A stretch of 64,000 nt of DNA from Corylus avellana. Its lineage: Eukaryota; Streptophyta; Magnoliopsida; Fagales; Betulaceae. The stretch spans positions 8,053,021 to 8,117,020 of the forward strand of contig NC_081541.1 of NCBI RefSeq assembly GCF_901000735.1, given 5' to 3'. Position numbers and translations under genes: made by a program. This document shows positions 11,386-60,000 of the stretch, in pieces (within the stretch, counting starts at the first letter, position 1; each line of letters starts with the position of its first letter). Below the pieces are notes generated by a model. The model made no database searches. It was given only the letters and a program-made list of their open reading frames with translations, and was not told the DNA's origin.

Positions 11386-14300
11386 ATGGCAGCCCTAGTG
11401 TTCCTGTCTGCCATATGCATTCTCATTGCTCCAGCCATTGCTGGGCCAGCGTTCATTCACCATTCCTGTTCAGATGAGCAGGATAACTACACGAGTGGGA
11501 GTGCCTACAAGGCAAACTTGAATCACCTCCTCTCCTCCCTCTCCTCCAACATCACTGAGGGGTTCTATAATTTGTCTGATGGGGAAAACCCTGATAAAGT
11601 TTATGCAATTCTACTTTGTCGAGGAGATTTGAAGCCAGATGATTGCCGTAATTGCCTCAATGTCGCCATAGATAATCTCACACTGGAGCTTTGTCCCAAG
11701 CAGAAGGAAGCCATAGCATGGTATGAAGAGTGCATGTTACGCTACTCAAGCCGCAACATATTTAGCACCATGGAAGATACTCCTGACTTTTCATGGAGGA
11801 ACGCCTATACCTTTTCAGACCAAGAAAAGCCTCAATACAGTAGACAATTCTTGAGCTTGTCGCAAAGCCTAACAGATCGAGCTGCAGCAGGTGGTTCTCT
11901 CCGTAAGTTTGCAGTAGGACATGCAGCAGGACCAGACGTCAATACAATTTATGCACTTGTGCAGTGCACGCCCGATTTGTCTGAGGAAGACTGCAAACTT
12001 TGCTTGACTGGGGCTTTTGCAAGTTACTGGAAATATTTTGCTGGGATAAAAGGTGGGAGAGTTCTTAGGCCTAGCTGTAATTTTAGGCATGAGATCAACG
12101 CCTTCTACAACCTCACAGCTGAAGCACCACCACCATCGCCGCCTTCTTCAGCTGAAGCACCACCACCATCGCCGCCGCCTTCAGGTACCGCCTCCAGCTA
12201 GCACGTCAATTTGTCCGAGTGAGCTATTTCTTTTTTCTTTTTCTTTTTTTTGTAACAAACATTCATTCATAAAACCAGAGAGAGATTACAGGACAGTCAA
12301 GCTTTTTATAAAGCTAAAAAGCATAGGCAGATAAACCCGACTCAAATGGTCAACAAACACTTTAAAGCATGTGAAAGTAGAAATCATGGAATGCAATTCG
12401 AGAAAACCCATGCAGCGGCGCAATCTGATAAAAACAACCATCAGGAGTACGAATACTCCGAACATCTAAATAAACTTCCTAAGAAGTTATGAAGATTTAG
12501 ATGAAAACCAACCGTGAAAAAAACAGTTTCCAGAAAGAAACCAAAAATAAAAGCAAAAAAATTCCAAATCACATACGAAGAGTTTGAAGCCCAACCAAAA
12601 TGGGTTAAACAGAAAACAAAATAACAACATAACGAAAAATAAAAACAGGACAGAAAAACAGGGAACAAATTTTAAGTCCAAAAAACAGCCACACACGTGA
12701 CGGAAGCGGAGGCGCGGAGGATGCCAGGAACGCCAGCAAATGCCGACACCAGGGAGGTGGAGCGGATGAAGCAAGCACGTGCAGCGAAAAGCTCTCCACG
12801 GGACGGCGCGTGCGATACACGCGCTGGAGAGTAAGATCTACTCTCGGGGGCGTGTGGGCCACGCGCCGGCTTGTGGAGGTCCGCTGGTGGCACGGCTGAT
12901 GGCAGCAGAAAGGTGAAAGACCCAGGATCCCGGTGGATTGGAGCGTCGTTGAGTATGGCTTCCTGAAATTTACAGATCTGATTTTGAAGAAAATCAAATC
13001 CAAAAATTCAAAAGGAAGAGAGAGAACAGAGCTTTTAGTTTCAATTCGAATTCGAGTGAGCTATTTCTAAGTGGTTTTTGATCATGAATTTGTTTGTTAT
13101 TTTCCTGATCATACTTTTTTTTTTATAAAAAAACTTTATATGTTTCGTTTAATTTCCTTTTACTTTTCATCTTTAAGAATTAAGAGGGAATTATTTCTTG
13201 GGTGTCGGAGTCGGACTGGGTTATTTCTAAGTGTTAATTTGTTAGAGTTTCAAATCAAATGTTAATTATAGTAGCTCTTTCTATGTATTCCACTGCTGCT
13301 TGATTTAAATAATATATATTTCTAATCTTCGCAGGTAAAGGGAGTCACAAATCTACAACTACAGTCATTATAGTTGTGCTCGTTTTTGCTTTTGTGGTAA
13401 TAGCCATCTTCATTTCCATCTATTTTATAGTGAAGAAGCGAAGGGAGAAACCAACAAGTAAGTATAGAATTTGGTTCACTTTTATTTGTTATGAGAGGAG
13501 TTAGAAGTTGAATTATCGCAAAGAAAATATATAACAGAGTTCGAAAACATTTGCTCTTGCCTCTTCGTATACATCAAATACGTGTCCTTAAGAACTAGAG
13601 TCTAGCTAGGTGATACTCCCGTCCCCCCATTTGAATAGAACAAAAAAAAAAAAAAAAAAAAAAACGGAGTCTATCACCAGAGGATCGAAAAAGAATTGAA
13701 GAAGAAAAAGAATAAATCATCATAAAAAGAATTTGGATTTAGAAATTATGCTTAGTATAAATATTCTTTCTTATTTTTCAATTGGCAAAAATATCCTGGA
13801 TATAATCCTTCATTGAACTTGCTCAGTTTGTCTTCTTTTACAGTCCAATTAAACCCTAAAACTTCATCATCTTCTGAACGTCATTGGGATGTCTTCCTCA
13901 ATTTTAGAGGTGAAGACACCCGCAATCATTTCATCGATCACCTTTATGCTGCCTTGGCGCGAGCCAAAATTTGCACCTATAAAGATGATGAGACGCTTCC
14001 AAGAGGGGAGACCATCTCTACTGAACTTCTCAATGCAATTCGAAAATCAAGGATTGCTATTGCGGTTTTCTCCAGAGGCTATGCTTCTTCCACATGGTGC
14101 CTTGATGAGCTTGCGGAGATCATGGACAATAGGAAAATTAGAGGGCAAACTCTTCTTCCAATATTTTATGACATAGAACCCTCGGATGTCCGAGAACATA
14201 CCAATACTTTTGCAGAAGCATTTGCTCAGCATGAAGAGCAGTTTCAGAACAATATGTGGAAGGTGCAAAGGTGGAAAGAAGCTCTTACTGAAGCTGCAAA

Positions 14301-15222
14301 TTGTTCCGGCTTCGAGCCCAAACGCATTGCAAATGGGTATGATGCTACGGACTCTTGTGCTTTTTCATTCATTTTTATTTGTTATTTTATTTTATTTTCT
14401 TTTAAATTTTGGAAAAGAATTTAATAAATTAAAGTTTGAGCCATAAAAAAAAGAGGGAAAAATAACCCTATGTATTGCATACTATTCTACGCCCTCTTAA
14501 GTCATCAATTTCTTTCTGTTCCGGGGGTTAGAGTGCTTTCATGTTCAATCAAAACCCAAAGATAGGCTTGTCATTCCCTGCTAGAAATTCATGGGGATGA
14601 GATCCGTACATGTACCGTATGGTGGCTAAAATCGGTTTTCCCATATATAATAGGGAGTAAACAATGACAACTCTACGAGTATAGAAAGATGATACTTCTT
14701 AGAGAGGGATTTTGGTTCTAGAATTATTGAATGTTGCCTTTTAGATGAAATGTCATGCACTTGAAAGGAATAGTATTTTTGCCATAATTTCCATAAAATA
14801 GTTAATGCCTTTGTCTATGGGAAAAAAAAAAATTGAATTATTTTATGGAATGTCACTGGATAAGACAAGAAATTATGTACAAATGTACTTCGATGATATT
14901 CTTTGACAAATTTGATATGAGTTAGATGCTTGTCATGACATCTTAGTCTCAAATGACAGGTATGATAACATATTTTTGGTACCTGAAGACTCATAAGTTA
15001 CTCTGTTTTTTTTTTTTTTTTTTTTTTAATATATTTTCTTCCATCTTCTTTCCTTGTACTTAATTTGTTGTTGTATTTTTCATTTGAATCATAATAACCA
15101 GGCGTGAGTCAGAATCCATCAAGAAGATTGTTGAAGACGTTAGGCGTAGATTAAAAGCCGGTGCTAACCGGAATGTTGCCAGGCGGGTAAAAATAAAGTT
15201 CCTAAACCTCATGGGGTATTAG
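11386..15222 (+). CDS. Chimeric DUF26-DUF26-transmembrane-TIR receptor, predicted 511 aa
   Basis: Four inferred exons: 11386-12184, 13335-13457, 13844-14336, 15102-15222 (stop TAG 15220-15222). Phases agree at every junction (1, 1, 2) and the total is 1536 nt. Exon 1 gives a signal peptide (residues 1-19), DUF26 motif C78-X8-C87-X2-C90, second motif C194-X8-C203-X2-C206 and a Pro-rich hinge. Exon 2 gives one membrane helix (about 277-299) followed by KKRREK. Exon 3 is a full TIR domain (from 323, DVFLNFRGEDTR; FYDIEPSDVR), with the WCLDEL glutamate (E396) that corresponds to the catalytic residue of plant TIR NADases. Exon 4 is the usual post-TIR linker (ESIKKIVEDV) ending in a stop. No kinase exons are present, unlike copies 1, 3, 4 and 5. 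The start is the MA... ATG conserved in the paralogues; an in-frame ATG 27 bases upstream (11359) is possible. The TIR exon has no ATG of its own downstream of the in-frame stop at 13753, so it needs an upstream exon. Splicing is predicted, not shown. Otherwise it is a CRK remnant beside a TIR-NBS remnant. Confidence 0.65.
12232..13052 (-). mobile_element. Retroposon insertion in intron 1 of the chimeric gene, 16-bp target-site duplication
   Basis: CGAGTGAGCTATTTCT occurs at 12216-12231 and again at 13053-13068, exactly flanking 821 bp. On the minus strand the insert ends with an A-rich tail (12232-12252 read in reverse), the mark of LINE-type retroposition. The interior has a GC-rich part (12690-12900) and no retrotransposon domain. 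It may be an internally deleted LINE (5' and 3' untranslated parts only) or a retroposed transcript. Without it intron 1 would be ~313 bp, close to the 262 bp of copy 3. Confidence 0.8.
14337..15101 (+). other. Intron 3 of the chimeric gene (TIR to linker)
   Basis: Bounded by GG/GTATGA and AACCAG/G. This is the usual position of the first intron in TIR-NBS-LRR genes, directly after the ...ANG codon that follows the TIR domain. No transposon or gene was recognised inside. A poly(T) run lies at 15007-15030. Confidence 0.6.
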
Positions 15223-15237
15223 GTATTTAACCCTCTT

Positions 15238-15440
15238 TTAAATCTTGTAACAAGTGCTATTCACTTTGTGGGCATTTATATAGGATTGATGGGTGAAATT
15301 GGTAAAACAACTCTCGTAAATGTTGTTTATAGCAAAGTATGTGTTGAATTTGAAGGAAGTAGTTTTCTTTCAAATCTTGAAGAAAATTTAGAAAAGCCCA
15401 ATGGCTTAGTTCATTTGCAAGAACAACTTTTGTATTCATG
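15238..15440 (+). pseudogene. NB-ARC (NBS) remnant with P-loop
   Basis: After the stop of the chimeric frame, a different frame reads a P-loop, GLMGEIGKTTL (canonical GMGGIGKTTL), then VVYSKVCVEFEGSSFLSN and EKPNGLVHLQEQLLYS before a TGA at about 15438-15440. This is the start of the NB-ARC ATPase of a TIR-NBS-LRR gene, cut off before the kinase-2 motif. A deletion or frameshift separates it from the linker at 15102-15222. No leucine-rich repeats follow. A matching, more decayed copy is at 22520-22700. Confidence 0.85.
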
Positions 15441-15480
15441 ATTACATGAACATCAATTATGTGCAATGAATCTTATGAAC

Positions 15481-18333: not shown

Positions 18334-18387
18334 TATATATAATGATGAGTTACTTGGCGGAAATCTTACTTAATTAGCTACGTACAC

Positions 18388-19716
18388 ATGGCAGTAGTGG
18401 TTTGTTCAAGACTAGTGTTCCAGCTGTCAGCCATATGCATTCTCATAGCTCCAGCCATTGTTCGGCCAGAGTTCCTTGGCTATTCCTGTTCAGATAAGCA
18501 AGGTAACTACACGATTGGCAGTAGGTACTACAAGGCAAACCTGGATCAGCTCCGCTTCTCCCTCTCTTCCAATAGCACTGGAATTGACAACTCTTTCTAT
18601 AATTTGTCTTATGGGGAAACCCCTGACAAAGTATATGCAATTGCACTTTATAGAGGAGATATTCAGCCAAATGTATGCAATTTTTGCTTCAATATCTCTA
18701 TATATGACCTTCGTGTACAGCTTTGTCCCAATCAGAAGGAAGCAATAGCATGGTTAGACGAGTGCATGTTACGCTACTCAAGCCGCAACATATTAAGCTC
18801 CATGGAAGCTACTCCTGAATTTTCTATTGGAAACGTGTATAACGTATCAGGCATTGTGAAGACTGAATTCAATAACACCCTCTTGAGCTTGTTGCAAAAC
18901 CTAACTGATGGAGCTGCAGCAGGTGGTTCTCTTCGTAAGTTTGCACTAGGACATGCAGCAGCACCAAACTTCTTAACAATAAATGCACTTGTGCAGTGCA
19001 CACCTGATTTGTCTCAGCAAGATTGCATTAATTGCTTGAGTGGGGCTTTTGGAAACTTCTGGAAGTCTTATGGTGCGGCAACAGGTCGGAGAATTCTTAG
19101 ACCTAGCTGTAATTTTAGGTACGATACCTCCGACTTCTACAACCGCACACCGGATGCACCACCACCACCGTCGTCCCTGTCCCTGTCCCAGCCCCCGCCC
19201 TACAGCAGCACAGCTGATGCATCACCACTATTGCCACTGCCACCGCCACCGTCAACACCAACTCCTGCGGGTACCAGCTATGTCGCTATGCTTGAAACAT
19301 AGCAAATTTGTGTATATTTCCATATTACAAATTTTCATGAATACTTGTTTATTTTTTAATTTTTCCTTTTCCTTTTTTAACTTTTTTTATCTTAGAGGGC
19401 CGGTGATTTTTCTTTTTAACTGCATAAGTTGTTGACTTTGAAAACAACTTCTAATTAATTACCATATATAGCTCTTTCTATATATGTATCCCATTGTTTA
19501 ATTTAATGTGAACATATTTCTGGTTTTCGCAGGTAATAAGAGTGACGACAAATCGATCATTATAGTTGTGCCTGTTGTTTCTCTTGTGTTACTAGTCATC
19601 TCCATTTGCATCTATTTACGAGTGAGGAATCCAAGGGAGAAACCAGGGAGTAAGTAAACAAATTGATTATCGATCGCAAATAAAAAATAAGAGAGTTAGA
19701 AAATTTACATGTGCTC

Positions 19717-19774
<58 letters not shown>

Positions 19775-20940
19775 AGTTTGGGTGATACTTGTGGGAGTAT
19801 CCGCTGATATATATTAATTATGAGTACAACAAGTCCCAATTAAGCAATAATTTACATAATAATTTGGACGAATATTTTATTTTTATCAAACAATACTTAG
19901 CTATATATCATTAAGGACATTAAATCAGAGTTTTCTGTCAAGAAATGAAAATTCCCCTAAAGCAAACAGAAAATTATTACTTTTTGGAAAAGTTAATATC
20001 AATAATTGGTTTTGGAAAGTTCATTGGGTTCACTTATAATTCAGAAAAAAAGTGTTGACTTCTTGCTAGGTGAAGCTGTGGTCCGTGGATGAGATACTCA
20101 ACCAAAAAAAAGGAGCTGTGGATGAGATTAGAAATGTGGAATCCTTGCAATTTGACTTTGGCATTATTAGAGATGGAACAAAAAACTTTTCTGATGCAAA
20201 TAAGCTTGGAAAAGGTGGATTTGGTACTGTTTATAAGATGATGTGAATTTTTTTTTTGGGTAATATATCAAGTCTTTGTGAAACATGTTAAATAAAAAAT
20301 TTTGAAGTTTATGAGTGTTAAGTATGCATTATTCTAAAATATTTTTTTTAGGGTAAACTCTCAAATGGACAAGTTATAGCGGTGAAAAGATTATCAAAGA
20401 ATTATGAACAAGGAGATATAGAATTTAAAAATGAAGTCTTGTTGGTGGCCAAGCTTCAACACCGAAATTTAGTTAAGCTCTTAGGCTTTTGCTTGGAAGG
20501 AGATGAAAGGATTTTAATTTATGAGTTTATGCCAAATACAAGCCTTGATAACTTCATATTTGGCATGGCTGAACTTTTAAACTAATTTTATATATATTGC
20601 ATTGGTAGTAGTTTATATTGGGTTTCATGTCTAGTGATGATAGACTTGGCACATTTCACATCAATATAATTATACACTTGGATAAATGCATATATAGATC
20701 CAATCAAATGTGCAAATCTGGACCGGAAGGAACGCTACAAAATTATAAGAGGCATTGCTCGAGGGATTCTTTATCTTCATGAAGAGTCTTGACTTCGTAT
20801 TATTCATTGTGACCTTAAAGCTAACAACATTCTCTTAGATGCAGAAATGAATCCAAAAATTTCAGATTTTGATATGGCAAGATTGTTTGAATTTGATCAA
20901 ACTCAAGCCAATACAAATAGAATTGTTGGAACCTTGTAAT
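18388..20940 (+). pseudogene. Cysteine-rich receptor-like kinase, copy 3, decayed and 3'-truncated
   Basis: Exon 1 (18388-19270) is open: signal peptide, two DUF26 domains and a long Pro/Ser hinge. The first cysteine of the first DUF26 motif is replaced by tyrosine (LYRGDIQPNVCNFC). The second motif, CTPDLSQQDCINC, is intact. Exon 2 (19533-19649) encodes the membrane helix, in phase. Exon 3 (about 20125-20237) has the Gly loop [10 protein letters not shown], but its donor is AAG/ATGATG instead of AAG/GTGATG. Exon 4 (about 20352-20565) has AVKRLS and a GC instead of GT donor. Exon 5 (about 20698-20937) has a stop in EES*LR, HCD for HRD and DFD for DFG. Later kinase exons are missing: the sequence runs into a CACTA-like element at about 21025. 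A truncated membrane-anchored ectodomain could still be made from exons 1-3. Confidence 0.9.
19720..19772. repeat. (AT)n microsatellite in CRK copy 3 intron 2
   Basis: About 50 bp of AT repeat in the intron after the transmembrane exon. Similar AT runs occur at 21176-21208, 16823-16852 and 7940-7968. Confidence 0.9.
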
Positions 20941-21024
20941 TAAGTATCGTTGCAAGGTAGAGTTAATGCTTACTTTGAATGATAGAAACAACAAGAAAGT
21001 CATAACAACTATTTTTGAAACTAA

Positions 21025-21171
21025 TTGAGGGGGGAAATAAAAAAAGGGAAAGAAGTTCAAAATCCCGCCTAAAGGGGGCCAATCGAGGTAATTTCCTGAC
21101 GTGCCAGGTGTCGCACGTCAAATTCTCACGCGGCGACAATTCCGGCATCCGCCGTATAAATAAATATAATT

Positions 21172-21210
<39 letters not shown>

Positions 21211-21689
21211 GATAATTTTAATATATATATATATCTGATAATTTTAATATAATTTTATTTATAAAATTATAATTATATATAAATATCTGATATATATAAT
21301 AATTTTAGATATTATGATTTAAAATATCTGATAAAAGCAATTATAATGATATAAAACCAATTATAATTATCTATACAATATATATGAGTATTCTGACGTG
21401 GCGTTGTGCCACGTCAGAATTTTCTGACGTGGTAAGTCCTCACACGTCAGCAATTTTCTCAATTTTTATTTTTAAGAAAATGAATGAACCTCCCGACGTT
21501 GGTGTGTTTGCCACGTGAAATTTTTCCTGACGTGTGAATAGTAACACGTCAGAATTTTCTGACGTGTTACTGTTCACACGTCAGGAAAAATTTCCCTGAC
21601 GTTTTATATATAAAACGACAGAAAATTGCTGAGGTGGCAAAAATTTTACACTGTAGCACACGTCAGAAAATGCCCTTTTTTTTGTAATG
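21025..21689. mobile_element. CACTA-like non-autonomous transposon with ACGT-core subterminal repeats
   Basis: Between 21085 and 21670 there are about a dozen copies of CTGACGTG or its complement CACGTCAG, several paired as palindromes (21391-21420; 21524-21592). The right end reads TTGTAATG (21682-21689), one base from the TTGTAGTG expected at the end of a CACTA element (CACTACAA in reverse), just after GAAAATGCCC. No matching left CACTACAA end was found near 21025, so the left border is a guess. It separates CRK intron 5 sequence on the left from TIR sequence on the right. Confidence 0.55.
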
Positions 21690-22745
21690 AAAACAAACCA
21701 AAACTTTTGCAGAAGCATTTGCTAGGCATGAAGAGAAGTTTCAAACCGATATGGAGAGAGTGCAGAGGTGGAGAGAAGCTCTTAGTAAAGCAGCAAAATG
21801 CTCCGGCTTAGATCTCAAAAGCATTGAAAATGGGTATTATGTTGTGAACTCTTGTGCTTTTTCATTATTTTTTGTTTGTTTTTTCCTTTTTCTTTTCTTT
21901 GAATTTTGGACGAGAATTGATCAAATTAAAGTTGAGCTATAGAAAAGAAAAAATAACCTTATCTTTTTTATCTTTTTTTTTTTTTTTGGTTTGCGCATAG
22001 GAGTAAACAATATTGACAAGCCTCTTGGGAGAGGTCAGATCTTAGTTTTAGAATTATTGAGTGTTGCCTTTAATTTAGATAGAATGTCATACGCTTGAAA
22101 GAATGTTATTTTTACCATAATTTCCATAAAACAATTACTAGCTTTCTCCATGAAAAATTATTTATGGCATGTCATTGCGTAGGGGACAAAAAATTATGTA
22201 AAAATATACTCCAACGATATTCTTGATTAATTTGATATAAGTTAGCTGATTGTTATGACATCTTAGCTAGTCTCGAATGATTGGGATGATGGTACCCTAT
22301 AAGGACTCATTATTGATTTATTTTTTCCTTTTTTCTTTTCATGTACTGACTTTATTATTCTATTTTTCATTTGAATCATAATAATCAGGTGTGAATCAAG
22401 ATTCATCGAGAAGATTGTTGAAAAAGTTTTGTGTATGGTGATTGTCCCTACTGACCTAAATGTTGCCAACATCCGATAGGAATAGATTCTTGTGTTGAAG
22501 AGATCGATCAAAGTCTTTCTAAATCTTAAAACAAGTGACGTTTGCATTGTAGGCATCTATGAGATGGGTGGAAGCAATACATACAACTACTCTAGCTCAC
22601 AAATGCTTTCTATAACAAATATGTGTTGTATTTGAAGGAAGAACCTTAAAAAGAAATTCAGAAAAGCCCAATGGCTTAGTTCATTTACAAGAATAACTTC
22701 TGTATTAATGAGCATCAATTATGTGCAGTAAATCTTACAAACATA
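21690..22745 (+). pseudogene. TIR-NBS relic (3' part of TIR exon and decayed NBS exon)
   Basis: The frame opening near 21713 reads TFAEAFARHEEKFQ-like sequence, then MERVQRWREALSKAAKCSG, ending IENG at a GT donor (about 21834). This is the last third of a TIR exon, colinear with copy 2 at 14208-14336. After an intron that also resembles copy 2, 22390-22700 holds remnants of the linker and NB-ARC start with stops and frameshifts (EKPNGLVHLQE is still readable near 22660). The TIR start is missing. Together with copy 2 it shows that a CRK plus TIR-NBS pair was duplicated as a block. Confidence 0.85.
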
Positions 22746-48000: not shown

Positions 48001-51000
48001 GGAGAGAAAACAAATAGGCATTTCTTTGAGGAATCTGAGTCCAACGTGCTTTCTTTAAAATCCTCTTTTTTGAGATCTCTTTTTGATTGGGTTGTTGTAT
48101 ATGTTCCTAACTTCTCCTCATCGAATCTAGTGGATCTAGTTAATTTTTTAGATTTTAGAGCCTTTAGGGTGATTGGCTCTCTTCTATACTTTTTGTGTAT
48201 GAGGGCTTTGCCCTTTTTTTTATAGGTAATATCAAGAAAGCTTTATAGAAAGCGTACGCGCCCCAAGCATACAGGAAGTATACAAAAGGACACAAAAAGC
48301 AAAAAGAACAAAAACACAAAAAACAGGAAAGAACAAGGAGAAGTTGAGGGTTTTGCCCTTTTCTTTCAATAAAATTATTATTCTTACTCTTTTTTGGGCC
48401 GGGGGGGGCTCCTTTTCAGTGGTTGGTTTGTTCCATCAAAGAGTTAGTAGTTCTCTTTTGTGTGCATTGCAATATGTGTCATCTTAATGCCAGTGCTGTC
48501 ATTGTTTTATTTTACCTGGTAAAATATCTTTTTAAGCTTTGTCTAACATTTTTTTTTTTTTTTTTTTTGATAAGTCTTAACATTTTTTTATAAAACCAAG
48601 CACATATCCTTGACTCAAGCTGTTACAGACCCACAGAAATCTGTTCCTTCTATTACAGCTATAGGATTTCATGGTGTACAAGTTTGGCAAAATGGTATGT
48701 TGTTCATATTTAAATTGGAAACTCTGTTTCAGGCTAGCATCTAGGACAACACATAACCATGTAGTTAATTTTTGGTTATTCCCTTTGTGAATAACTTTAC
48801 AGACGGATTTGTCAGTGCTGAAGATCTAGCATCCAGTTTAGAGAAGGCATGGTTGAGTCTGCATATCCAGGTATATAGTTGTTCATTTTAATCATCATTA
48901 GTCAGCACTTGCAAATGCCTATTTTCTTCTGTTATGGTCCCACTGCTCCCAATCCTTGGGCTACCATGTTGATGAGTGGCCATGTTTGAGGAGCAGATCT
49001 CCATTTGACTGGGTTCTAAGTTGTGGAAAAAGCAATGGAAAAGATTTAAACCCCTTAGTTGTCTACAATGCAGTCGCGTCTGCTTTAGTTTATGAGGAGA
49101 TTGACTTTCCATCTAATGATGTGCCTTGTCATGCAATGCCCTCTCCTTGAATCACTGCCTTTTATAAGAAGATTGCTATACCCCTTTCAGGACCAACTAA
49201 AATATAACATATACTTTTACTTCACACTAATGACAAATCAACTAGAATATATGCTATCCATTTTACATGTCATGGAGCAGACCAAGGCTATGTTTGGCAA
49301 AGGAGTGGACTTAGGAAGTGGGCCGAAACTATAGCAGATTTAATTGATGTGAGAGAAAAAAGTAAGAATATTTTGTATAAAAAAGTGAAAAATTTTGTTT
49401 TGTAGTATTTTTTTATTTGAATAGTAATAAAAAGTGATTGATGTAATGTAAAAAATAAGAATGTTGGGGTTGATTTTTAGAAATAATTTTTTGGAATTTT
49501 GGGTCCAGTCCGGCCCACTCCTTTGCCAAACACAGCCCAAGTCATATGAAACCAATCTCATTCTTTTTTGTCTTAGTGCCAAATATGATACTCTAGCAAT
49601 AATCACCCGTGAGAGGCCAGATGCCATTATTGGGCAGTTACAAGCCTAGGAACTTCCTTAGTTTCTTTTTATTAGAAACATGACAAGGTCATATATATTG
49701 TGGAGTGCAGGAAACAACTGCAACTTTCCTGACTGCGGCACTTGCTTCAAGGAATTCTGGAGCATCTACTTCTAGTTCTAATGCTGCCTCATCTAATGAA
49801 CAAATTTCTTCAAGTATAGTTGTTCCATCACCTTCAACTGACGAGCATGTCCAATATGAAGAGGCTAAGCCAGCAGTAACCTCTGACGTAACCGAGGAAA
49901 AGAAAGGCCATGAATCCAAAGTTGAGGTAACTATAATAGGTAGTCATTGCCTCGTTGATCTTTTATATTCATTAACTGTTGCATGATATGCTTGTACTGT
50001 TTCATTCCATTTACATGGACAGGAGAAAGATACTGAAATGAATGAGAAGGCATCTTCAAGATCATATAACACCGGCAAGTTAAAGGGTGTTGTGGATGAA
50101 CAGCCCACCTCATCCACTAAGGTACATAAAGGATCAGTTGATCCTTTAGTGGCCGGCATAGAAAAATCTAGAGCTGATCATAACTCTTCCAGTGTTGAAG
50201 ATGGTTGTCCTGCTCCAGAAAAAATCAGTGGTCATCATTCAGGTGCTACTGGAGGAGGTGAGCAATTGGCTGGTACTGAAGTAAATGAAGCTGAGCAAGA
50301 TGAAAAGGCTGAAGCTGTAAACCATATGCAGGCTTATGCATCTGATGGTTCTAAAAGAGATAATATGTCTAGTGATGTCCATTTAAATATACGATTGCCC
50401 ACTGGTTTTAGCCTACAAGAGAAGTTTTCTGTGACAAGCACTTTGAGAATGGTGAAAGACTATGTTGATGAAAACCTACCAAGTGGCTTTGGCACTTACG
50501 ATCTAGCCATTCCTTATCCCCGCAAATTATTCAGTCACCAAGGTATGAACATTGTTTGTTTTCTTTTTTCTTTTTCTTTGAAAAGAAGGCTAAAATGCAT
50601 ATTGGTCCTTTCAAGTTTAGAGTTTCTGCCAATTTGGGTCCTAGTATCTTTGATTTGGTCATTTTAATTCTTGAACCTGCACATCATGGTCAATGTGGCC
50701 CTTCTATCCGTTCTGTTAACTTTGTCCCTGTCAAATTTCGTCTAATGTCACGTGATGCTGCATAAAATTAAATGACATAGTTATGATGAAAATGATCATG
50801 AGGGAAAAAAAAAATAGAGAGAGGGAATGAGTGATCATCTGAGACCCCAGATCTGGTAATGGAGTGGGGCTGCCCCCTCCTCCTCCCTTGCAGGGGCAGG
50901 CGCCCACGGCCCAGGCCTGATCTTACCTGCCTCTACCAAAAGAAATGTGGGCTCCCATATCAATGGACACTTGATCATGATTTTATCATCTTCAATACTA

Positions 51001-56437: not shown

Positions 56438-57089
56438 AAAAATTGAGAAGATCATTTTCTCATAGAAGGGTTGTAAAGTCACTTCCCTGTCTTCACTCTT
56501 TAATGAGGACAATAACTCCCATGTTGTTCGTACAAGACCCCCCAACAAAAAACGGAAGGCCACCCTTATTTGTGCAAAGTCATTCATTGCAATGAGTACC
56601 CCGTTGAGGGGTGGCCGGCTGCCTCTTCCCTCTCCCTCTCTTTTTGTTTTCACAAAGTTTAGTTCTTTTTATAAGGGGAGTTCTTGGATGATGTATATAT
56701 ACAACTACCTCTCTTCACAAACCGTAAAGTTTGTTTTCTTTTTACCGAAAAGACAGGCATTGTTATTTCAACAGTTAACACTTTTTTCCTAATGGATTGA
56801 GATCATAATCCTTTGATGACAATGGAAAATGTCCGAATATTCTTTATTTCCTCCAATCATATATATAATTCTACTCCTTTTTCTTTCCCATTCCTATCTG
56901 AATCTACACAATCTTCCACTCGCATACGTGGAATTGAGAGATTCTAACACAAAAAAAAAGGACAAAATCCAGCTGCCTCCAAAATCCACCTATCCCTTGA
57001 CTAATACAGCGCCGCCATAAATACCCGAACACATGCAGTCTCTCTTTTTTAGGGCTTAAAACATATTTTTTCCCCGCCCCTCCTCCGCC
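56438..57089 (+). promoter_or_regulatory. Promoter and 5' leader of the isopropylmalate synthase gene
   Basis: No ORF of note. CATAAATACCC at about 57016 is a plausible TATA element 74 bp upstream of the ATG. CT-rich sequence (CAGTCTCTCTTTTTTAGGGC) follows, as in plant leaders. Position-based inference. Confidence 0.5.
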
Positions 57090-60000
57090 ATGGCTGCCAT
57101 TTTCACAGCTCCCAAATTCTCCTCCACACCCACAGCCTCCATTTCCGCAGCCAATACCAACATCTACACCAGAATTCCTCACCACGTCTCCCCAAGACCC
57201 TCACTCCCACGTCTCCCCCACGCCTGCCCCAGAAAAACCGCCGTCTCCTGTTCCCACCAACATGCCCCACCGCCGTCGTCAACAACAACAAAGTCGACGA
57301 CCAGGAACCGCCCAGATTACGTCCCCAATCGCATCTCGGACCCCAACTACGTCCGCATTTTCGACACCACTCTCCGCGACGGCGAGCAGTCCCCGGGCGC
57401 CTCCCTGACGTCCAAGGAGAAGGTCGACATTGCTCGGCAGCTCGCCAAGCTCGGTGTCGACATTATTGAAGCCGGCTTCCCCGCCTCCTCCAAGGACGAC
57501 TTCGAGGCCGTCAAAACCATCGCCAAGGAAGTCGGTAACGCCGTCGATAAGGACGGGTACGTCCCCGTCATCTGCGGCCTCTCCCGGTGCAATGAGAAGG
57601 ATATTCGGACGGCGTGGGATGCCGTGAAGTACGCCAAGCGGCCCAGGATCCATACCTTCATTGCCACCAGTCCCATTCACATGGAATACAAGTTGAGGAA
57701 GACCAAGGAGGAGGTGATTGATATTGCCAGTCGTATGGTTAGGTTCGCCCGGAGTTTGGGCTGCGACGATGTCGAGTTTAGCCCCGAGGATGCTGGGAGG
57801 TTCGCCTGTTTTTATTCTTCACTAATTCTATGAAAAAGCTTTAACACTTCTGTTTTTCTTTTAATCACTAAAACCGCTAAGAAGTTAGAAGAATTTTTGG
57901 TTTGGTGTTTGAATTGGTCTTCATTGTTGTGCCATTGGCTAAGTTCTTTTTCTGGAGTTGTGAAATAAACATTCGTGTTCAAATGTTAATCTTTATTTTA
58001 ACTTGTAATTGATCACCCTTTGGTCAGTTCTTAATGTGCTCTGTACTCATTGTCATACAATTCAAGGGCAAAGGTAGTTCATTATTAGATTGTGGAACCA
58101 AATTGTTCAAGTGCATATGATTTTCAATTAGGAATTTGGGTTGTCATGTAAAAGGATCATGCTGCTGAATCATTTTCCTTGAGATGATCCTCAGCGATTT
58201 TAACTCATTCAGTAACTCTGAGAAAGCTTAGCTCGTTTTTGTTTGGGACTCCTTCTCCTTATGTAAGTTTATTGTTAATGCTTTTCATTCATACATGGGA
58301 GCCTCTTTATTTTATTGAGAATGCTTATGCAGTTATTGCCATGTTTCCATTACTGTGCTGATATGACTGTTTCACATAGTACGGAAAAGAATGACTGGTC
58401 TTTCCAATCTTGCTAAAATTATGAACTTCTTGCCTACCAAAAAAAGTGGGAAAAAAAACTAATGAAAAATCCTGTTGTAGATGATGATGCGTCTCTATTG
58501 TTGGTCACTTGCCATTTTTCATTTTAGAATAAAGTGTAATGAAATAAAGTGTAATGGTTATTTGTTTCTTTGAATCTACCAGATCTGACAGGGAGTTTCT
58601 GTATGAAATATTGGGAGAAGTTATCAGGGCTGGAGCCACAACTCTAAACATTCCCGATACTGTGGGTATTACTGTTCCCTATGAATTTGGGAAATTGATT
58701 GCTGACATAAAATCCAATACCCACGGAATTGAAAATGTTATTATATCAACTCACTGCCAAAATGATCTTGGACTTTCTACTGCTAACACTGTAGCGGTAA
58801 GCCCATTGCTTTCTTTTGCTCTATTTATTCAGGGCAAGATGATCAAATTGCACTCATGTCTCATTTCATCAAGTTCAGGGTGCATGTGCAGGTGCGAGGC
58901 AGCTGGAAGTGACAATCAATGGCATTGGTGAAAGAGCTGGAAATGCTTCACTAGAGGAGGTGAGTGTTTACTTCTTACAACAGTATAAGGCCTCAGTAGT
59001 CAGAACACTTGTTAGGCCTCCAAGTATATATTCACTTACATTAAATCATTGTCATCAAATGAAATCAAAATTCAAATGCATCTCGTTCTGATCTCAATTT
59101 CCACACATCCTTGCTTCTCTCTCTCTCTCTCTCTCTCTTGCTCTTCAAGGACTTCTCTGACTCTTTGTTTCAGCAACTCTGAGCATTTCGTTTACTTTTG
59201 ATTTCTTCATGTGATACATAACCAAATCAATTTCTTTTAGTTTTGCTCTTCAAGTACTTCTCACTCACTCTTTGTTTCAGTAACTCTGGGGATTTCTTTT
59301 ACTTTTGATTTCTTCACCTGATTCCTAACCAAATCATATTCTTTCAGTTTTACCCTATCTACCTAAACGTTATAAATCCTTTTCTCAATCCCTTTGAGTT
59401 GGTTCTTACCACCTTCCTTGCAAGACATTCCATTAGTCTCAAAAACTGCATGGCTGACCTGCACTAGGAATTCTAGAAAAAGAGTAAGAAATCCTAGACT
59501 CAGTGAGCTCTAGTTGCTAACTTGGGCAGTTAGTGTAACATCCTAGTTCTATATTGAGAAAATGAGTAGCCTACATAGAATAAGTGGTTTATAAAGATAC
59601 TCATGGGTGCTAAGTCCTACATTGTTTACTTACTAGGTAAACCTAAGATTCATAAGTGATTATAGGAAAGCTCCAAATTGACTATCTTTCGCTTTGGAAT
59701 GATGGCACTCCCTTTCCTTGAAAGAATATTTGGCGGATTAAGGTTCCTTTGAGAGCGGCTTACTTTGCTTGGTGAACCCCCTAAAGAAGATCCTTACCAT
59801 GGATAACCTTAGAAAGCGGCATATTATTGTGGTCGATTGGTGCTATATGTGTAAGAGAAGCATGTAGTCTGTTGATCATCTTTTTTCTTTATTGTAAGGT
59901 TGCTTGTGCCTTATGGAATGCTATATTCGGTCGTGTTGAGTTGTCTTGGTCTAGTAGTAGACTTGTTTGCTTGTTGGAGGGGGACTTTTGGTAGCACTCA

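Follow-up and report, generated by a model that had tools for sequence, protein, structure and literature searches.

What does a plant gene encode when the DUF26 and membrane exons of a CRK are followed by a TIR exon? The question is raised by positions 11386 to 15222 of the 64,000-nucleotide stretch of Corylus avellana (hazel) DNA analysed here (contig NC_081541.1, positions 8,053,021 to 8,117,020; hereafter the window). Plant cell-surface receptors are generally taken as kinase signallers, and plant TIRs as intracellular receptors or soluble TIR-only proteins. Judging from sequence, the locus is probably a real four-exon gene for a single-pass receptor with a signal peptide, two outer DUF26 domains, a membrane helix and an inner TIR domain of catalytic type; it would have originated in Betulaceae by exon shuffling, and its DUF26 domains would drive TIR clustering and NAD+ hydrolysis. 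We have good confidence that the fused gene is real. That its product works as a ligand-driven TIR receptor we put at about even.

The four exons (Table 1) are joined as a first-pass annotation of the window had drawn them. All three introns begin with GT and end with AG, the exon phases agree, and the 1536-nucleotide frame (512 codons) has its sole stop at the end. Pfam found two copies of PF01657 and one of PF01582 (E 3e-47) in the fusion protein, no protein kinase family and no LRR at E 0.001, and no NB-ARC, of which a relic is located only past the stop codon. NCBIfam matches were confined to the TIR part and lay far under the cut-offs. The hydropathy profile of the database protein P0001, introduced below, shows a hydrophobic N-terminus (residues 1-34) and a single internal helix at about 280-311, ahead of the TIR motif at 332; about 200 residues, including the TIR domain, lie C-terminal of this helix, which is also present in the structure model. 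Both halves of the modelled protein resemble solved folds, DUF26 for one and TIR for the other. We take E405 of the hazel fusion to be equivalent to RUN1 E100.

Does the same protein occur elsewhere? Three protein searches were evaluated over the best 120 of 746, 1245 and 268 matches; they were bounded by protein length, with full-length TNLs and their LRR parts outside the limit. In a search of about 5.8 billion proteins, P0001 (Corylus avellana, 520 residues) matches our 511-residue query at 100% identity and coverage. Its N-terminus is nine residues longer (MMSYLAVEL, readable in the window from 11359), while its junctions and end are identical, so the database annotation drew the same gene. 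It is nevertheless called cysteine-rich receptor-like protein kinase 8 despite having no kinase domain, an illustration of how automatic naming can conceal a kinase-less protein. A search for DUF26 and TIR in one protein, which the first-pass annotation had suggested as a check, returned three proteins carrying both PF01657 and PF01582 among the matches listed: the hazel protein and two from Alnus glutinosa (alder). The alder proteins, of 510 and 503 residues, have open frames, share 56% identity with the query over 95% of its length and likewise terminate soon after the TIR linker. The predicted layout is thus common to two Betulaceae genera, Corylus and Alnus, and the order of DUF26, membrane helix and TIR proposed at first reading is borne out by the sequence, the database model, the two alder proteins and the structure model. 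Of 264 distinct proteins, four were flagged by a script as having a membrane helix ahead of the TIR motif, namely the three fusions and P0212 (Helianthus), in which the flagged stretch is weak and 20 residues long. No DUF26-TIR fusion from a further family was found among the best 120 matches of each search, which took in annotated proteins within the length limits and hence no unannotated genomes such as those of Betula, Carpinus and Ostrya. Like the first-pass annotation, we met with no description of a plant protein of this layout, in our case among listed open-licence papers; the proteins themselves were already in databases under kinase names. The matches also include P0136 (Malus domestica), which combines TIR and protein kinase domains; its two TIR motifs precede the kinase, and no membrane helix was found in it.

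The TIR part of the fusions keeps most of its conserved positions. We defined 42 columns conserved at a level of at least 90% in 94 other TIR rows (those with one motif match and sufficient length, from 264 proteins). The hazel fusion TIR keeps 40 of these columns and each alder fusion TIR 38, compared with a median of 41, a 10% point of 39 and a minimum of 25 in the 94 rows. The glutamate at the catalytic position in WCLDEL (pattern WCLxEL) is kept in all three fusion proteins, and the stretch that follows it and the PRGETI stretch are similar between hazel and alder. In a rough neutral simulation (300 runs, no insertions or deletions), 1% of the runs with 0.1 changes per site left the whole frame without a stop, and no run with 0.15 did so.

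Could the gene nevertheless be an accidental join, made by the gene model, of two adjacent relics, a kinase-less CRK and a truncated TNL? Two features that the first-pass annotation had not mentioned bear on this question. An NB-ARC relic lies immediately downstream of the stop codon, so that the TIR with its linker resembles a truncated TNL. The CRK copy at 18.4-22.7 kb (copy 2) has a TIR fragment and an NB relic of its own, and its membrane exon is separated from the TIR fragment by a fragment of the kinase. The remaining CRK copies of the window are also ruined: in an alignment to hazel CRK44, all four show stops at aligned residues, and copy 1 is in addition frame-shifted in DUF26, in keeping with the earlier remark that the copies retaining kinase exons are decayed. 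The same remark held every exon of the fusion to be clean. This is correct as far as the open frame goes, but exon 1 is weak evidence, because the DUF26 exon of the ruined copy 2 is equally free of stops. Moreover, the hazel fusion branch has, for its DUF26 exon, a ratio of non-synonymous to synonymous substitution rates (dN/dS) of 1.01 (bootstrap 0.56-2.12); pairing the window copies differently gives 0.92 and 1.61, so that constraint on this exon is not demonstrated. Fast evolution of the ectodomain and relaxed constraint would both fit this pattern. In the alignment, the fusion keeps its DUF26 motif cysteines, of which copies 1 and 2 have each lost one. An accidental join does not account for alder proteins with open frames and the same layout at this level of identity, for the grouping of the fusion TIRs in one clade (see below), or for a TIR exon that lacks a start codon and still keeps its conserved columns. 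We therefore regard it as improbable.

Table 1. Exons of the fusion gene and neighbouring features, in window coordinates
Feature	Position	Strand	Description
Exon 1	11386..12184	+	799 nt; signal-peptide-like hydrophobic N-terminus, two DUF26 (PF01657), both C-X8-C-X2-C motifs
Exon 2	13335..13457	+	123 nt; membrane helix, then basic juxtamembrane stretch; phase-1 donor
Exon 3	13844..14336	+	493 nt; TIR domain (PF01582); phase-1 acceptor; expected catalytic glutamate, E405 in P0001 numbering
Exon 4	15102..15222	+	121 nt; TNL-type TIR/NB-ARC linker helix; stop codon at end
Exon 2 and start of intron 2	13342..13556	+	aligns to CRK copies 1 and 4; homology ends at 13556 and 13554
Intron 1 insertion	12216..13068	.	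between 16-bp direct repeats CGAGTGAGCTATTTCT, 837 bp apart; T-rich run at low end
NB-ARC relic	15235..15459	+	broken P-loop region 3' of the stop codon; outside the protein
CRK copy 1	6.6-3.0 kb	-	stops at aligned residues; frame change inside DUF26
CRK copy 2	18370..22744	+	DUF26, membrane exon and partial kinase with stop (18.4-20.9 kb), TIR C-terminal fragment (21691-21834), linker, NB relic
CRK copy 3	29.5-30.9 kb		kinase pieces only; stops
CRK copy 4	36.0-40.2 kb		stops at aligned residues

On the CRK side of the joint, homology to copies 1 and 4 continues past the membrane exon as far as 13556 and 13554, and the joint accordingly falls within intron 2. On the other side, the extra N-terminal segment of some Fagales TIR-NB proteins stops where the TIR part of the fusion starts: such a segment, followed by the pre-TIR residues DVQSNSTT, DVYSNPTT or DVQLPNS, is seen in P0160 and P0163 (hazel), P0166 (Morella) and P0170 (alder), respectively, and is missing from the model of hazel P0159, although this protein belongs to the same clade of the TIR tree. 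From these protein sequences, the TIR exon of the Fagales TIR-NB group appears to have a natural acceptor at the position of the joint. The membrane exon ends in a phase-1 donor and the TIR exon begins with a phase-1 acceptor, as exon shuffling requires, and the joint thus fits phase-1 exon shuffling. We propose that, in Betulaceae, the phase-1 membrane exon of a CRK was placed ahead of a phase-1 TIR exon from a Fagales gene of TNL type, intron to intron. The source gene would normally have had a separate 5' segment, and its NB-ARC and LRR parts would have been lost or left as a relic. After the membrane helix, the hazel sequence KP(T)IQLNPKT and the alder sequence KKPGNQSNSTRST align in register.

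Other accounts of the start of the TIR part were considered. The possibility, raised in the first-pass annotation, that the TIR exon is used with a start codon of its own is disfavoured: its frame has a stop at 13753 and no ATG until 14122, midway through the TIR domain. We also dropped the idea of a TNL start region that had lost its ATG, because there are TIR-NB proteins whose extra N-terminal segment ends at this same place. No relic of this 5' segment was found in the window at E <0.01 when five segments were searched; the rows listed had E of at least 1.4 in 13.0-15.5 kb and at least 0.12 in 19.6-22.8 kb. The similarity of the pre-TIR intron to a TNL intron, represented by the read-through protein P0169, is weak, its anchored score being reached by 38 of 5000 shuffles and its free local score by 605 of 2000. 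Within residues 1-40, the hazel TIR proteins P0163 and P0007 start with MGQSFS and MGQISS, followed by a basic stretch; these starts resemble an N-myristoylation start. If they are truly N-myristoylated, membrane anchoring of TIRs in this group would be older than the fusion.

Copy 2 carries further traces of this history. Its TIR fragment, linker and NB relic align to their counterparts at the fusion locus, up to 22744 and 15482, respectively; duplication of the CRK-TIR unit thus seems to have occurred. Copy 2 may represent either a stage preceding loss of the kinase or a later mixture.

Whether the hazel and alder fusions share one origin was examined with trees of each half. In a TIR tree of 38 rows hand-picked from the matches (P0208 was dropped, having no motif match), the clade of the three fusion TIRs is supported at 99/95 and is nested in an 11-row clade (97/92) of hazel, alder, Morella and one JGI row. 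Topologies splitting the fusion TIRs gave p-values of the approximately unbiased test (p-AU) of 0.014, 0.068 and 0.032, for groups named after inspection of the tree. In the DUF26 tree (39 rows), a 14-row clade (100/99) unites hazel copies 1 and 2, the hazel fusion, five alder and six JGI rows. Within it the two alder fusions and the alder DUF26 protein P0024 stand together (99/94), inside a nine-row group of five alder and four JGI rows (100/100). The test rejects a clade restricted to the hazel fusion, the alder fusions and P0024 (p-AU 0.002), but not a wider clade of the hazel fusion and the nine-row group (p-AU 0.37). By these trees the hazel and alder fusions do not pair as sisters in their DUF26 halves, which could be explained by tandem duplication, gene conversion and loss of the TIR in alder, or else by two separate joinings. 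In the last case the same exon exchange, allowed by fitting introns in both source families, would have taken place independently in the two genera, an explanation compatible with the other readings of the locus. The non-sister DUF26 halves and the one TIR test with p-AU above 0.05 speak for it; the fusion TIR clade, the other two TIR tests with their groups chosen post hoc, and the joint that lies in register between hazel and alder speak against it. Two origins seem to us unlikely on balance.

Together with the dN/dS near 1 and the open exon of copy 2, the non-sister DUF26 halves weigh against our main reading, as do three further points. Only Q and N are common to hazel and alder in the first four residues of the joint. 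The branches of the fusion TIRs are longer than those of their TIR-NB kin. Finally, alder has a TIR-less relative of the fusions: the predicted protein P0024, from a contig equal in length to that of the alder fusions, continues past the membrane-TIR joint and then stops with PSSSKFR, one residue short of DVFL.

These points bear on what the product does. Provided that the fusion gene is transcribed and spliced, contacts made by the DUF26 domains, either to a ligand or to further DUF26 receptors, would gather the TIR domains beneath the plasma membrane. The TIR assembly would then hydrolyse NAD+, and the resulting small-molecule signals would reach EDS1 heterodimers and helper NLRs. BB-loop mutations are reported to abolish cell death by RPP1-TIR, RBA1 and TX14, and no cell death is caused by RBA1 E86A, a catalytic mutant, on its own (PMC10972746). 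DUF26 ectodomains of PDLPs are described as similar to fungal lectins (PMC6368629). From these observations we infer that extracellular contacts may cluster the receptor, and hence its TIR domains. Coupling of ligand sensing to a TIR output, as suggested at first reading, is plausible.

A transcribed fusion might instead use its TIR as a regulator and not as an enzyme: it could, for instance, pair with TNL or TIR-only proteins and so hold or sequester them at the membrane. The missing NB-ARC, which would drive assembly, the long TIR branches and the TIR-less P0024 are in line with such a role. Nevertheless, the expected catalytic glutamate is present in every fusion, the stretches after it and around PRGETI are alike, and several plant TIR-only proteins are reported, in the part of the source seen, to be active without NB-ARC (PMC12856790); we give this role a low probability. 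Still less likely, and indeed very doubtful, is a reading in which the TIR exon is a passenger and the gene serves, with intron 2 retained or the TIR cut off, to make a DUF26 protein of PDLP type that is short-tailed or secreted. P0024 stops ahead of the TIR, and the alder DUF26 proteins P0013 and P0016 have different tails, in line with such a product, but TIR conservation in both genera would be left unexplained. When JGI DUF26 proteins were checked for spliced transcripts, the six tails displayed resembled unspliced read-through.

Other elements of the window look mobile or unrelated. The insertion in intron 1 looks like a retroposed element in reverse orientation; Pfam gave no match in two of its minus-strand open reading frames. 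The interval 21040-21680, which separates the kinase fragment of copy 2 from its TIR fragment, is AT-rich with repeated TGACGTG-like motifs and is transposable-element-like. An open reading frame at 24539-25360 matches an integrase core (PF00665) and belongs to a mobile element. Those at 49987-50667 (UBX, PF00789) and 57060-57833 (HMGL-like, PF00682) are probably ordinary neighbour genes.

A surface ectodomain and a TIR in one molecule, found in two genera, would connect both arms of plant immunity and would allow ligand-driven TIR activation to be tested free of NLRs. The broader proposal is of a Betulaceae receptor class in which a TIR enzyme replaces the CRK kinase and converts an extracellular signal to TIR-made nucleotide messengers, a convergent plant Toll-like receptor; we rate it slightly short of even. 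A survey of 1409 DUF26 gene models from 32 species distinguishes CRRSPs, PDLPs and CRKs, at least in the part seen, and the word TIR has no occurrence in its main text (PMC6368629). In the portions available of two reviews and one survey of plant TIR proteins, no surface receptor with a TIR is described.

How does the fusion compare with known systems? It resembles CRKs in its hydrophobic N-terminus, its two DUF26 domains with C-X8-C-X2-C and its single membrane helix, and a known CRK can be aligned over the DUF26 and membrane exons with copies 1, 2 and 4 of the window; CRKs, however, have a cytosolic kinase where the fusion has a TIR. With the Fagales TIR-NB proteins P0160, P0163 and P0166 it shares the TIR, the residue at which the TIR starts and the linker, but these have an N-terminal segment of their own in place of DUF26 and membrane exons, and an NB-ARC. 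Alder P0170 has the N-terminal segment and TIR with no NB-ARC listed; a PF06839 match is listed alongside its TIR. TNLs have the TIR in common with the fusion, whereas their NB-ARC and LRR are not found in it. The plant TIR-only proteins RBA1 and TX14 likewise have a TIR with the catalytic glutamate and neither NB-ARC nor LRR. They are not known to have an ectodomain or a membrane helix, both of which the fusion has. PDLPs share the tandem DUF26, with a match of the DUF26 fold, and the membrane helix, but their cytoplasmic extension is described as short in the part of the source seen (PMC6368629), as opposed to a TIR domain. Arabidopsis PP2-A5, a TIR-lectin, also joins a TIR to a lectin-type domain; unlike in the fusion, its TIR is N-terminal, and a membrane helix is unmentioned in the part of the account seen (PMC12355970). 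Finally, animal Toll-like receptors have the same order of ectodomain, one membrane helix and cytosolic TIR. Their ectodomain consists of LRRs, while the fusion has DUF26 and a TIR of plant enzymatic type, and its origin is independent. Should the fusion protein function in the way its domain order suggests, it would be the convergent plant counterpart of these receptors.
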